From the NCBI GenBank assembly GCA_012510855.1, contig JAAZHE010000057.1:1-34325 (forward strand): a stretch of 34,325 nucleotides of DNA. The letters are read 5' to 3'. Made by a program: the position numbers and the translations under genes. Of this stretch, positions 28,966-34,325 are shown piece by piece (position 1 is the stretch's first letter; each line of letters opens with the position of its first letter). Source of the DNA: Bacillota bacterium. Its GTDB lineage: Bacteria; Bacillota; Limnochordia; DTU087. Under the pieces are notes generated by a model. The model did no database searches, was not told the DNA's origin, and was given only the letters and a program-made list of their open reading frames with translations.

Positions 28966-30165
28966 TTAGCCTTCCTCAAGAGCCGAACTGTCTCTCAGGG
29001 TCAACAAACCGGCAAGCATGATTACCGGAAATACAACAGCCAGCAAAATGCCCGCCCGTAGATCGCCACCGGAGGCATCGGCTGCGAATCCCACCAAAGT
29101 TGGCCCTGAGACACACCCCAAATCTCCGGCTAAGGCCAGAAATGCGAACATTGCCGTACCACCAGTAGGCAGCGTTCTGGCAGCTATACTAAGGGTACCG
29201 GGCCAAAAAATGCCCACAGAAAACCCGCATAGGGCACAGCCTACCAGGCCCAGGACGGGGTTTCCCGATAGTCCAGCCAGCAGGTAACATGCAACGCACA
29301 ATCCCGCACTGCCCATCATCATTTGCTTGAGGGGAATATGGTCACTGTATTTTCCGTGCAGGAGTCTAGCTAATCCCATGAGCAGCGCAAACCCGCAGGG
29401 ACCTGCTAAATCTCCAATGGTCTTGTCAACCCGCAAGCCTGCTTCGGCAAAAGCAGAGGACCATTGGCTCATCGCCTGTTCCGCTGCTCCCGCGCTTACC
29501 ATCAACAGCATGAGCAGCCAAAAGAGCTTCTGCCCTAATAGATTCCTAATGGTCAATCCCTCATTTTCCCCTACGATGGGATAAAGGGGGACTTGGGAGA
29601 AATAAAGCAGATTAAATGCCGGTATTAGTGCCCAGATACAGGCCAGGATTCGCCAGTTATCGATCCCTACCAGTGCGAAAAAGGCAGTTGAGAGCAACAC
29701 CACACCGACATGACCCCAACAATAGAAGGAATGGAGCAGGCTCATGGCCGCCTCCTTCTTTTCCGTGGGACACGCTTCCACAATGGGGCTGATGATTACT
29801 TCGATTAGACCGCCGCCAATAGCATAAAAGACAACAGCAGTCAGAAGACCGGCATAGCTGTTGGGTACTAAACTGGGGAACAACGCCATACCCACTAATC
29901 CTAAGGCGGCAAAGAAATGGGCGGCAACCGCCGCAACTCTGTACCCAATGCCATCGATACAGTGGGCTGATAGCAGGTCTACACACAGTTGGACAAGGAA
30001 ATTCACCGTGGTGATTAGAGTAATCTGCTCTAGGGATAACCGAAAGGATCTCTGAAAAGTCAGGAAGAGAAGCGGAGCGAAATTATTAATGGTAGCCTGG
30101 GTGATGTAGCCGATATAACTGGCATAGATGGTGTGCTCATACCTGGTCCTGATACTATCCAGCAT
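28966..30165 (-). CDS. MFS transporter
   Basis: A 399-aa major facilitator with about twelve hydrophobic helices. Residues 1-200 and 215-395 give the two six-helix halves. The signature loop between helices 2 and 3 is present as DLLSAHCIDGIGYR near 65, a variant of the classic D-x-x-G-R/K motif, and the parallel loop in the second half reads GLARLLHGKYSDHIP. The substrate is unknown; sugar efflux or uptake, or drug efflux under the nearby TipAS regulator, are both possible. ATG 30165 has GGGAG at 7 nt. It converges with the merR gene (30-bp gap, no terminator seen). Confidence 0.85.
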   Translation of the reverse strand: MLDSIRTRYEHTIYASYIGYITQATINNFAPLLFLTFQRSFRLSLEQITLITTVNFLVQLCVDLLSAHCIDGIGYRVAAVAAHFFAALGLVGMALFPSLVPNSYAGLLTAVVFYAIGGGLIEVIISPIVEACPTEKKEAAMSLLHSFYCWGHVGVVLLSTAFFALVGIDNWRILACIWALIPAFNLLYFSQVPLYPIVGENEGLTIRNLLGQKLFWLLMLLMVSAGAAEQAMSQWSSAFAEAGLRVDKTIGDLAGPCGFALLMGLARLLHGKYSDHIPLKQMMMGSAGLCVACYLLAGLSGNPVLGLVGCALCGFSVGIFWPGTLSIAARTLPTGGTAMFAFLALAGDLGCVSGPTLVGFAADASGGDLRAGILLAVVFPVIMLAGLLTLRDSSALEEG

Positions 30166-30194
30166 CCCTATTCTCCCATGTAGGCAAAATCTGG

Positions 30195-30225
30195 ACTAGA
30201 ACCTTCACTGAAGACTACAATTCAA
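30195..30225 (-). promoter_or_regulatory. Possible MerR-type promoter of the MFS gene
   Basis: On the minus strand TTGAAT (30220-30225) and TCTAGT (30195-30200) have a 19-bp spacer, containing the imperfect dyad CTTC-AGT-GAAG. The architecture fits a MerR-controlled promoter, but the dyad sequence differs from that of the regulator's own promoter. Confidence 0.35.
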
Positions 30226-30313
30226 CAGAACACCATCTATATCCTCCAAAGGGCTATCTCACCACAGCACGAGCCACGTGTACATTATCTTACCTATACT
30301 TCGTACTTATATC

Positions 30314-30374
30314 AAAAAGACAGCCCACTCCCCCTAGCCAGGATTGCAGGTGCCTAGGCTTGATGGGAGCGGGC
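30314..30374 (-). terminator. Intrinsic terminator of fprA
   Basis: On the minus strand GCCCGCTCCC (30365-30374) pairs with GGGAGTGGGC (30323-30332), one G-T pair, with an inner AGCC-AGG/CCTGGCT stem, followed by TGTCTTTTTG. It lies just past the fprA stop. Confidence 0.8.
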
Positions 30375-30386
30375 CCTGGAACTAGT

Positions 30387-31574
30387 CTATGCCCGGGCGA
30401 TAGCCTTGCCGAATTCCACTGCTGCTTCTTGGGCATCGAGGTCAGGATTCCACAGCTGCCTGAATCCCTCATTGAGCAGCTCAAGGCCTGCGTCCTGCAA
30501 GCTCTCATTGATAATCTTTACCGACTCTCCACTCCAACCGTAGCAGCCAAAGGCTGCCGCCTTTTTCTTCTTAAACTTCATCTGCTTGACCATATGCAAG
30601 AATCCTGCTACCGAATGGAGGATGCCGTTGTTAATGGTAGGTGAACCTATCACCACAGCTTTGGATCTAAAAACTTCGGTAATTACATCATTCACATCAC
30701 TCTTGGAGAGATTGTAGGATCTGACGGTCACATCGGGATCTGCTAAGCCGATGCCTTCCACAATCCTCTCCGCCAGCATTTTGGTGCCGTTCCACATGGT
30801 ATCGTAGACTACGGTGATCTGGTTCTCTTGGTAATCATTGGCCCACTGGGCATACTTTTCTACAATCTGCAGGGGGTTGTCTCTCCAGATCACCCCGTGG
30901 CTGGTGGCAATGATGTCAATGGGCAGATTCAAAGCAGTGATCTCGTCCAGCTTTTTCCTCAGTATTGCGCTAAAGGGAGTCAAAATGTTGGCGTAATACT
31001 TCATCGCTTCGGCAAAGAGCTCGCACTGATCCACCAGGTCATTGTACAGTTTTTCCGTTGCATAGTGCTGTCCAAAGGCATCGTTGCTGAATAGTATGTT
31101 GTCCTTTGTGAGATAGGCAGCCATACTGTCCGGCCAGTGAAGCATGGCCATTTCAACGAAAACAAGTTCCTTACCGTTGCCGATGTCTAGTTTGTCCCCG
31201 GTCTTGACCACCCTGAAATTCCAGTCTTTATGGTACTGGCCCTGCAAGGACTTAACTGCATTGGCGGTACAGTAAATAGGTGTATCGGGGATGTGTTCCA
31301 TCAGAATAGGGAGTGCACCGCTATGGTCTACCTCTCCGTGGTTGATCACAATATAGTCAATGTCCCTCAGATCAATTTCTCCCGCCAGGTTCTCCACGAA
31401 CTCTTCAGCAAAGGGGAGCCATACTGTATCAATCAGGACTGTTTTTTCTTCCTGGATTAGGTAGGCATTGTAGGTGGAACCTTTATGGGTCGAATACTCG
31501 TATCCGTGGAAATCCCGCAGCTCCCAGTCAACCTTACCTACCCAGTATACGTTATTCTTTATGTGCTTTTTCAT
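30387..31574 (-). CDS. fprA: Flavodiiron protein FprA (A-type flavoprotein)
   Basis: Reduces oxygen and/or nitric oxide in anaerobes, receiving electrons from rubredoxin-type partners. From ATG 31574 (AGGAGG upstream) it is 395 aa. The metallo-beta-lactamase-like domain carries the diiron ligands His79, Glu81, Asp83, His84 in NHGEVDHSG, then MLHWPDSM, FSNDAFGQHY and ATSHGVIWRD. The C-terminal flavodoxin domain begins VVYDTMWNGTKMLAE near 255 and binds FMN. There is no C-terminal rubredoxin domain, so this is a class A protein. The track's longer N terminus from 31619 is rejected because the ribosome binding site lies within it. The 36-aa rubredoxin-like protein in this window is not adjacent but could be a partner. 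Confidence 0.95.
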   Translation of the reverse strand: MKKHIKNNVYWVGKVDWELRDFHGYEYSTHKGSTYNAYLIQEEKTVLIDTVWLPFAEEFVENLAGEIDLRDIDYIVINHGEVDHSGALPILMEHIPDTPIYCTANAVKSLQGQYHKDWNFRVVKTGDKLDIGNGKELVFVEMAMLHWPDSMAAYLTKDNILFSNDAFGQHYATEKLYNDLVDQCELFAEAMKYYANILTPFSAILRKKLDEITALNLPIDIIATSHGVIWRDNPLQIVEKYAQWANDYQENQITVVYDTMWNGTKMLAERIVEGIGLADPDVTVRSYNLSKSDVNDVITEVFRSKAVVIGSPTINNGILHSVAGFLHMVKQMKFKKKKAAAFGCYGWSGESVKIINESLQDAGLELLNEGFRQLWNPDLDAQEAAVEFGKAIARA

Positions 31575-31906
31575 GTGTTCTTGTCCTCCTTGGTGGTATC
31601 CTTGCAGCGACTGGACCAAGAGTCCCTAGGGTCTATCATGTACTGCTCGGCTCGGGGAAATTCTCCCCAGCTCGCAGCTGACCATTTGGCCCACCGCTAG
31701 TGGTTGCACCTTTCCGAAAGACCGGTTCTACCTACCACAGGCACGCAGTGCTTGTCCATGCGACTGCAGTTACCTGAACCCTAAGATATTCACTACCCCA
31801 CTTCTCGTCTTTCCAAACAACACCATCTCCAGTCGTTCTGTTGGGGTGTTGAATCTAAGAAAGCAGGGTTTCCCCTGCTTCGATGTTGACTATTACCAGC
31901 TGAGGG
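31575..31906 (-). other. Gene-free region: fprA leader
   Basis: About 330 bp without a coding frame. On the minus strand it contains the cobW terminator at its upstream end, then inverted repeats CAACACC/GGTGTTG (31818-31851), GGTTC...GAACC enclosing about 47 nt, and a compound hairpin around GGGGAGAATTTCCCC. I could not set a convincing promoter or match it to a known riboswitch (no T-box, SAM or cobalamin boxes). Confidence 0.35.
31861..31880 (-). terminator. Terminator after the CobW-like gene
   Basis: AAGCAGGG (31861-31868) and CCCTGCTT (31873-31880) form an 8-bp stem with a 4-nt loop; on the minus strand it is followed by TCTTAG. The T-tract is short, but the position 27 bp after the stop fits. 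Confidence 0.65.
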
Positions 31907-33010
31907 TTAATTGGATGGAGGTGTTACGACACGGTCGTAACGATAGGTTGGTCGCGGATACCCGGGACTGAGACACTTTAGGGCGATGACCTCTGATCTA
32001 ATATTACTTCCGCAGACATTGGCAATTTCTTCAAATGCGATCTTCTCCAACTCTTGAGGTGCCATCTGAACCCGGGCATTGAGAGTCATTCTTGCTTCAT
32101 TTCCAACCCCTGCGCTTCTTCGTATGGTGGGAGGTTCATCGGTACTTATCAAGTTTCCAATGACAAAATTGCTGCCGACTTCGACAATCAGCTTGACATG
32201 GCCGATGGCGGAATCGGCCTCATCAAATCGGCGACTGAGCCTGGTCAGCAAATCCTTCGCGAATTTGTCCCAATCGATAGAGTCACCCTTAAGCTCCAAA
32301 GTCGTGTTGAGCCACCCCAAGACTGCTTCTCCTTCAGCATAAATGTCATAGTCTACTTCTACTATATTCTTTCCGGCATCAGTACGACTGACAACTTCAC
32401 TGAGCCATTGATCCAGACCTTCTCCAGTCTTAGAGCTGACGACAAGTACTTCAGAACCAGGCCACTCCTGTTCTGCACGCCGCTGGAGATTCTGTATCTC
32501 CTCTTCAGTGAGCAGATCGGCCTTGCTGATGGCGATAATATCTGCCTCTTCAATCTGCTTTTCGATTATATACACTGCGCTGGGATGCAGTCCGGAGTCT
32601 CTTCCGTCGAGAATATCAGACAGACGCTGCGGATCAACCAGTACCGTCAGCGGGGCAACGACAAAATCCTTGCCGAAATGGTCCTTTAGAGGCTGCAGAA
32701 CCGTAGCAGAAAGGTCCGTACAGCTTCCTACTGGTTCGGCGATTATAACCTCGGCTTGGTGATTCTTTATTAGGTCGAAAATTGCCTCGGTAAAGCCTGC
32801 GAAATTGCAGCAAACACAGGCTCCGCTCACTTCTCTAAAGATTTCTACTGCGTGTTCAAGCAGCGTTGTGTCAACTAATTCCGGGGCTTGATCGTTCGTA
32901 ATCAGACCAATCCGCTTTCCTTCCCGGGCAAGTCTAGTGGCTGTCTCAAAAAGAAGTGATGTTTTCCCAGCGCCCAAGAATCCGCCAACTAAGATAATGC
33001 TTGTTTGCAT
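31907..33010 (-). CDS. CobW-like G3E-family GTPase
   Basis: A 367-aa P-loop GTPase of the G3E/COG0523 type. Walker A is GGFLGAGKTS at residues 9-18, the metal-binding CVCC motif lies at 65-68, IAEPVGSCTD follows as the switch/Walker B region, and SKADLL is the base-recognition motif (a variant of NKxD). A C-terminal domain of about 170 residues differs from the usual short CobW C domain. Family members insert or deliver metals (Co for cobalamin, Zn, Ni). The Cys-rich CxCC is kept, so metal binding is likely, but the target is unknown. ATG 33010 has GGAAGGG upstream. It has its own promoter and a 260-nt leader; no cobalamin genes adjoin. Confidence 0.82.
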   Translation of the reverse strand: MQTSIILVGGFLGAGKTSLLFETATRLAREGKRIGLITNDQAPELVDTTLLEHAVEIFREVSGACVCCNFAGFTEAIFDLIKNHQAEVIIAEPVGSCTDLSATVLQPLKDHFGKDFVVAPLTVLVDPQRLSDILDGRDSGLHPSAVYIIEKQIEEADIIAISKADLLTEEEIQNLQRRAEQEWPGSEVLVVSSKTGEGLDQWLSEVVSRTDAGKNIVEVDYDIYAEGEAVLGWLNTTLELKGDSIDWDKFAKDLLTRLSRRFDEADSAIGHVKLIVEVGSNFVIGNLISTDEPPTIRRSAGVGNEARMTLNARVQMAPQELEKIAFEEIANVCGSNIRSEVIALKCLSPGYPRPTYRYDRVVTPPSN

Positions 33011-33274
33011 CTTATCCCTTCCTTTCAGAGTCAGTTTTGGCTAGCCTCAGTACTTGGAGCTGCACTCTCCAACCCCCTAAGGGACGCGCCCGTTAACTGC
33101 GCTGCGAAATACGTTGGCGGCTTCTTAGCGGTCATCCTATTATCTATCACCATCGCCAGACTCACCGCCGGATCTAAGTCGGCACGGAGAGGTGTCTGAT
33201 GGCGAAAACAGGCAGTGCATCACCGCCAATGCCGCCAGATCGGTGATGCAACAGATTGGCCGATTGCGTTGATT
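33011..33274 (-). other. Long structured leader of the CobW-like gene
   Basis: The roughly 260 nt from the predicted transcription start to the ATG hold no gene; the track ORF 33005-33199 on the plus strand lacks support. On the minus strand there is a perfect 9-bp hairpin GCATCACCG/CGGTGATGC (33217-33249), then GCCG/CGGC and a possible GGCGG...CCGCC arm, and a hairpin TTGGAG/CTCCAA about 50 nt before the start. No cobalamin riboswitch box was recognised. A metabolite- or metal-sensing leader is a reasonable guess only. Confidence 0.35.
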
Positions 33275-33281
33275 ATAGCCA

Positions 33282-33310
33282 ATTATACCCTCTCACGCTG
33301 ACCAAAACAA
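33282..33310 (-). promoter_or_regulatory. Promoter of the CobW-like gene
   Basis: On the minus strand TTGTTT (33305-33310) and a perfect TATAAT (33282-33287) are 17 bp apart. Upstream of it lies a palindrome GGTCAA-TC-TTGACC (33334-33347) that could be an operator. Confidence 0.6.
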
Positions 33311-33457
33311 AGGGACATAATTGCTATCTGATAGGTCAATCTTGACCAGACAAGCCATCTTCTGAACACTCTAATTCAGTCTTTTATATCCCAGCCCTTG
33401 ACAGTAACGCAACGAACTCCACATGAAGTTTTAGACTAATTTATAATATCGCGAAAA

Positions 33458-33952
33458 TTATATGCGAGCAAGTTCTTCTGCTATTTCATTCACTGTCTTA
33501 CCGTTTGTGTTTATCTTTATCGTATTCAACTGATGATAAAGTGGAATTCGAGCAAGACTCCTGTCTATGACATCAGGCTTTCTTTTACCTGCTGCAATAT
33601 CTTTGCTAAGGCGTTCACGCAGTTCTTTTTCATCACAGATTAAAGAAATCGTCTTAATTTCGCAATTCGTCTTATCAAGGTTGTTTATGATCCTATCAAT
33701 AATTGACTGTTCGTGCATTACCCAGCAAAAGATGATGTTATCATATGCGGAGCAATGGATGAATTGATTCAGCAGAAAGCAGATATTTTCCATAACCATA
33801 TTTTTGGTTTCTTCGGTTACCTGAAACGGGCTTGCGTCCCAGCACCAGTCGCCGTCAAGAAAGACACTATTATCAAGTTTGAGTTTGAGCTCTTGACATA
33901 CCGCCGTTTTTCCGATACCCATTGTGCCGCCGATCAAATACAATTTTTTCAT
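33458..33952 (-). CDS. Small P-loop nucleotide kinase-like protein
   Basis: A 164-aa protein with an adenylate/shikimate-kinase-like fold. The N terminus reads KKLYLIGGTMGIGKTAVC with the Walker A GGTMGIGKT at residues 8-16, followed by a strand ending VFLDGDWCW, where the Asp probably helps bind the substrate. A lid-like ELRERLSKDIAAGKRKPD lies near 110-127. Similar orphan ATPases are widespread and mostly uncharacterised; the phosphate acceptor is unknown. The gene is visibly more AT-rich than the rest of the window, and it follows the recombinase relic, so acquisition by horizontal transfer is likely. ATG 33952 is preceded by GGAG at about 10 nt. Confidence 0.78.
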   Translation of the reverse strand: MKKLYLIGGTMGIGKTAVCQELKLKLDNSVFLDGDWCWDASPFQVTEETKNMVMENICFLLNQFIHCSAYDNIIFCWVMHEQSIIDRIINNLDKTNCEIKTISLICDEKELRERLSKDIAAGKRKPDVIDRSLARIPLYHQLNTIKINTNGKTVNEIAEELARI

Positions 33953-33971
33953 TTATTAACATCTCCATAAT

Positions 33972-34176
33972 TTATCTTCCAAGTAAGCGGTAAAATTCTT
34001 TTCTTGATGGCCCTGTCTTACTACTAGCAATATCTATATAATTATCTACAAGTAACCATTTAGGAACTGAAGCCACCGTTCTTGCTAAGGCTGATATTTG
34101 AGATGTTAGGCCATTTAACTGGTCCATGGAATTTGAACTTACTCGACTATAAATACCAACACGGGTGAAAGTTCAT
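33972..34176 (-). pseudogene. Serine recombinase (resolvase) N-terminal relic
   Basis: Not in the ORF track. The minus strand, read from 34160, encodes VGIYSRVSSNS followed by MDQLNGLTSQ and, later, DNYIDIASSKTG-SRKEF-RLL before a stop at 33972. This matches the N-terminal catalytic domain of serine recombinases (Y-x-R-V-S with the nucleophilic Ser, then the helix and the 'D..ISG..-R.EF..L' region). The natural start ATGAACTTT at 34176 is joined to that frame only if one base (around 34167) is removed, and at the 3' end CTTGGAAGAT would give LLED if one G were removed. So at least two frameshifts and a deletion of most of the protein are inferred. Confidence 0.72.
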
Positions 34177-34325
34177 CTTTTCTCGATACGTTCGTTCCCC
34201 AAGCTCTTGATAATGTAATCTTATAGGCTATATAGTCACTTTAGGACACCAAGTTAAAATCCAATAAATACTGTAACCCTTATACCATCAAGCCCTTAGC
34301 TATATTTCATTTATCAACCTTAGAC

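Follow-up and report, generated by a model that had tools for sequence, protein, structure and literature searches.

The locus at the end of this contig raises the question of what its interrupted serine recombinase and the short reading frames beside it represent. The window, by which we mean the whole analyzed stretch of 34,325 nucleotides, is a complete contig (C151) of a draft genome comprising 248 contigs (85% complete, 6.5% contamination), and its sequence ends at 34325. An initial annotation proposed that an AT-rich boundary carries a truncated recombinase with two frameshifts and a second decayed gene of the same mobile element, with a P-loop kinase as possible cargo. The compositional boundary is real, as the contig tail has a GC content of ~36% vs 48–55% in the remaining window. 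The GC content drops from 53% to 40% at about 33300, and positions 33011–33457 are intergenic with no notable open frame. In an attempt to set the left boundary by conservation, we found no match to 33005–33457 in 80 relatives. The segment from the kinase to the contig end is too small to hold relaxase or conjugation genes. The features identified here are listed in table 1.

Table 1. Features at the right end of the window (positions are those of the whole stretch)
Feature	Position	Strand	Evidence
P-loop kinase, AAA_18, 164 aa, intact; possible cargo	33458..33952	-	PF13238, E 4.9e-16
Junction from recombinase to kinase 5' flank, TTG common to both sides	33980..33982	-	L003 and L030 matches
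Serine recombinase fragment, residues about 36–97 of 324	33980..34166	-	85.6% nt identity to L030 719–533; PF00239, E 2.7e-5
Deletion junction (~216 bp missing compared with L030), with loss of the recombinase start codon and of codons 1–33	34166..34168	-	L030 alignment
Non-coding attachment-end (rumA-tail) region, including the SDYIAYK/NERIEK stretch	34168..34325	-	L030 match, repeat profile
rumA (RlmD-type 23S rRNA uracil methyltransferase), last five codons and stop, SKVDK*	34307..34324	-	C-termini of relatives

The proposed truncation of the recombinase was borne out. The minus-strand open frame (34172–33975, 66 aa) matches the Pfam Resolvase model, and its best relative, a locus from a Clostridiaceae MAG referred to here as L030, encodes an intact 324-aa recombinase with Resolvase and Recombinase domains to which the fragment is 85% identical at the amino acid level. 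In the window this gene survives as a truncated fragment only, with about 33 N-terminal and about 226 C-terminal codons absent. No further copies of the recombinase were found in the source genome or genus, and a search of 73 genomes found the att/recombinase DNA of the window nowhere else in the class.

The two breaks in this gene are junctions and not frameshifts. The first apparent frameshift, at which MNF gives way to TRVG, is the deletion junction relative to L030: blastn and alignment equate window 34168|34166 with L030 316|533, leaving ~216 bp missing at 34167. The second, which yields the ending RLLGR*, is the TTG junction between recombinase and kinase 5' flank. Here the blastn match to L030 begins at 33980 and that to L003, a different genome that carries the kinase, ends at 33982; recombinase homology ends at ...CTTG, and from TTGGAAGATAAATTA on the window corresponds to the kinase 5' flank as in L003. 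The frameshift model is thereby rejected. Since the breaks are junctions and the terminal codons are missing, read correction could not make the gene whole again. A frame that is open over 66 codons and 85% conserved could also be taken for a functional mini-protein instead of a relic. We consider this extremely improbable given that the head of the fragment has no start codon, that two-thirds of the protein is gone, including most of the catalytic domain and the entire Recombinase domain, and that a recent loss accounts for the residual identity.

The stretch upstream of the fragment, which had been read as a second decayed gene (SDYIAYK followed by NERIEKR), does not match any Pfam model. 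Positions 34325–34168 align with L030 163–316 (78.5% identity over 158 bases, E 1.7e-31), a region that follows the rumA stop (...VVLMSRVEI*) and precedes the recombinase. This counterpart is non-coding: stops interrupt its aligned frames, and its length differs from that of the window stretch by four bases. NERIEK itself is the translation of a motif, GGGAAC..ATATCGA (about 34199–34182), that many loci share in their non-coding rumA-tail repeat. The peptide SKVDK* at the contig end, which went unmentioned in the initial annotation, matches the C-termini of rumA in relatives (MSRVEI* in L030, MSRIDK* in L031, and MSKVEK* in the genus mates G001, G003, and G004), and bases 34325–34323 (GTC) are the last three of an octamer, TTGATGTC, that is shared by the related loci described later. 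These codons and the non-coding end are both present, but the contig stops before the remainder of rumA. Of the two adjacent decayed genes assigned to one mobile element, then, the recombinase survives as the relic of such an element, and the other turns out to be a non-coding attachment end together with the final rumA codons. Short open stretches of frame upstream of the recombinase are what speaks for a pair of adjacent genes decayed through frameshifts; with stops in L030, no Pfam match, membership in a repeated non-coding region, and junctions at both recombinase breaks, there is very little likelihood left for that model. Searching Rfam for structured RNA gave no match with an E value of 1 or less in 30000–34325 and none at gathering score in 11 loci, and single-sequence folds predict hairpins in the att region.

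Using the recombinase fragment, we collected 34 loci. In 21 of them a same-strand rumA gene, or its C-terminus, lies upstream, and the intact recombinase of L030 is directly downstream of rumA. A profile of the rumA-tail repeat, which is ~150 bp long, scores above 40 bits in 28 of the 34 loci, and the matches include loci left out of its building (L032, L033, L034, L041, L049, L050, L054, L058, and L060). When this profile was built without the window, the window tail was its best match yet a weak one (E 0.014, or 0.14 without L030). Because the independent profile matches so weakly, the placement of the window rests on the pairwise match to L030. The repeat is present three times in L042 and L051, twice in L030, L034, L038, L045, L047, L056, L061, and L062, and several times in G203, a single-contig genome. 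Copies in several loci are direct repeats with a spacing of 2–4 kb, usually 2–3.5 kb.

The octamer TTGATGTC follows the recombinase stop after 138–142 bases in seven cases. L033 and L044 are 97.5% identical from its first base onward and have differing rumA genes, and the blocks shared by L042 and L051, L047 and L051, and L051 and L056 all end at its last base. Such block edges between hosts are what site-specific exchange at the octamer would predict. A 2.5-kb block with 97.8% identity is shared by a Fusibacter tunisiensis genome (L047 6969–9500) and a MAG labelled Prevotella (L050 2115–4646), reflecting either recent transfer or mis-binning of the latter. At L030 2957–6716, beyond the second repeat, a gene resembling DNA cytosine methyltransferases precedes an AAA (McrB-like) gene and further genes, probably a restriction system as judged by translation alone.

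In several relatives, units of 2–4 kb stand head to tail after rumA, and each unit has its own short serine recombinase along with one or two cargo genes and the rumA-tail repeat. Arrays of this kind were seen at L042 2055–7139, L051 2503–6834, L047 4983–7140, L056 4818–7133, and about 23600–50900 of contig C1 in G203. The cargo between repeats includes a beta-lactamase-family protein, a metallo-beta-lactamase-fold protein, GNAT acetyltransferases, methyltransferases, a GrpB/APH protein, a glyoxalase, Fic and HTH proteins, and others. Many units have their cargo ahead of the recombinase; L030 and, judging by position, the window have it behind.

The kinase may be cargo of the element, as had been suggested, and its position agrees with the att–recombinase–cargo layout of L030, in which a nuclease-like gene comes after the recombinase. 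Against this, copies of the kinase in five class mates (76–88% nucleotide identity, 39–53% GC) have neither a recombinase nor an att repeat within about 1.5 kb, and the repeat profile gave no match beyond chance near or left of the kinase, where a second att repeat would be expected on its far side. None of the ORFs in the recombinase loci encodes a relative of the kinase, which gives no sign of recurrent cargo. The kinase matches a gentamicin-resistance ATP-binding family weakly (34 bits, cut-off 170).

Taken together, these data make it very likely that the window terminates in the attachment-site end of an integrative element whose target was the 3' end of rumA and whose recombinase has since been destroyed. 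The fragment, both junctions, the rumA-like tail, and the attachment repeat with its family can be read directly from the nucleotides; we infer from them that the element integrated and moved in the past and that it brought the kinase along as cargo, unless the kinase came in with the same rearrangement. A short (~310–325 aa) Ccr-like serine recombinase would insert the element at TTGATGTC within the last codons of rumA, swapping the rumA tail for that of the element and leaving the non-coding end and recombinase gene downstream. In the window copy, the recombinase would then have been lost through the ~216-bp deletion, and an illegitimate junction would have fused what remained, at codon ~97, to the kinase 5' flank.

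The contig end falls within the octamer, so that any join to a full rumA would lie outside the window. Since a different att-like tail (E 2.3e-4) already follows the closest full-length rumA of the source genome (contig C6), the window copy probably represents a strain variant or a unit from inside an array. Att-like tails at the contig end after the closest full rumA were seen in four genomes of the genus (G000 contig C6 4234–4349, corresponding to L076 and L102, as well as L074, L075, and L078). The rumA contigs of G000, G001, G003, and G004 all end within about 100 bases past the gene, and these ends right after rumA fit a variable site, which is suggestive only. A comparison with an empty site by way of cobW was uninformative because a different gene precedes cobW in G004. 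An assembly chimera, in which the AT-rich tail (33300–34325) came from another low-GC organism of the sample and was joined to a contig of ~50% GC, would make the relic real and place it in another genome. The GC drop, the unmatched segment left of the kinase, the contamination of the draft genome, and the fact that the nearest relatives of the tail belong to other lineages are all compatible with such a join. However, the kinase is present in class mates at the identities and GC contents given earlier, differing GC is expected of foreign elements, and three genus mates have the same kind of rumA tail, and we regard a chimera as unlikely.

Streptococcal ICEs and IMEs with serine recombinases have been described as inserting at the 3' end of rumA (PMC4701971, PMC5704250), and a nested recombinase island lies at the same place in Dehalobacter (PMC11578063). 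The relic in the window hence belongs to a known kind and is a decayed new member of the rumA-targeting elements. As in the streptococcal elements, a serine recombinase would target rumA and the 3' part of the gene would be exchanged, giving an altered tail. Those elements, however, have one attachment site inside the integrase gene, whereas in the relatives studied here the att repeat is outside the short recombinase gene and the units are mostly only 2–4 kb. The Dehalobacter island likewise gathers several recombinase-bearing elements at the rumA 3' end in a Firmicutes genome, but it spans 100–400 kb and its inner elements are not delimited, whereas the octamer and the ~150-bp repeat delimit small units here.

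There is also a resemblance to the staphylococcal cassette chromosome (SCC), in that the intact relatives match the CcrB model (E 1e-29 for L030). The intact recombinases of L030 and L034 reach no more than 103.5 bits, far below the curated cut-offs of 700–900 for CcrA, CcrB, and CcrC, and the proteins are ~310 aa long compared with ~450–560 aa for Ccr. SCC inserts at the 3' end of the rRNA methyltransferase gene rlmH; the elements described here also use the 3' end of an rRNA methyltransferase gene, but this gene is rumA. With integron gene-cassette arrays they have in common rows of mostly one- or two-gene units, repeat sites between these units, and small resistance- or modification-type enzymes as cargo, but unlike integron cassettes the units bear their own serine recombinase.

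The searchable open-access PMC text contained the rumA hotspot, and no description of small-cassette arrays was found in it. It is possible, if somewhat doubtful, that the relic and its kinase cargo are part of a widespread, undescribed system of small self-mobilizing cassettes, found mainly in Firmicutes, that combine a short Ccr-like recombinase, one or two cargo genes, and a rumA-tail att repeat and are stacked integron-like after rumA. What appeared to be a double pseudogene is explained as the end of a rumA-targeting element, and the octamer and repeat allow tangled islands behind rumA to be cut into units. If the cassette reading is true, rumA in Gram-positive bacteria would be a place where single genes of an adaptive or resistance type are gathered, much as in an integron.
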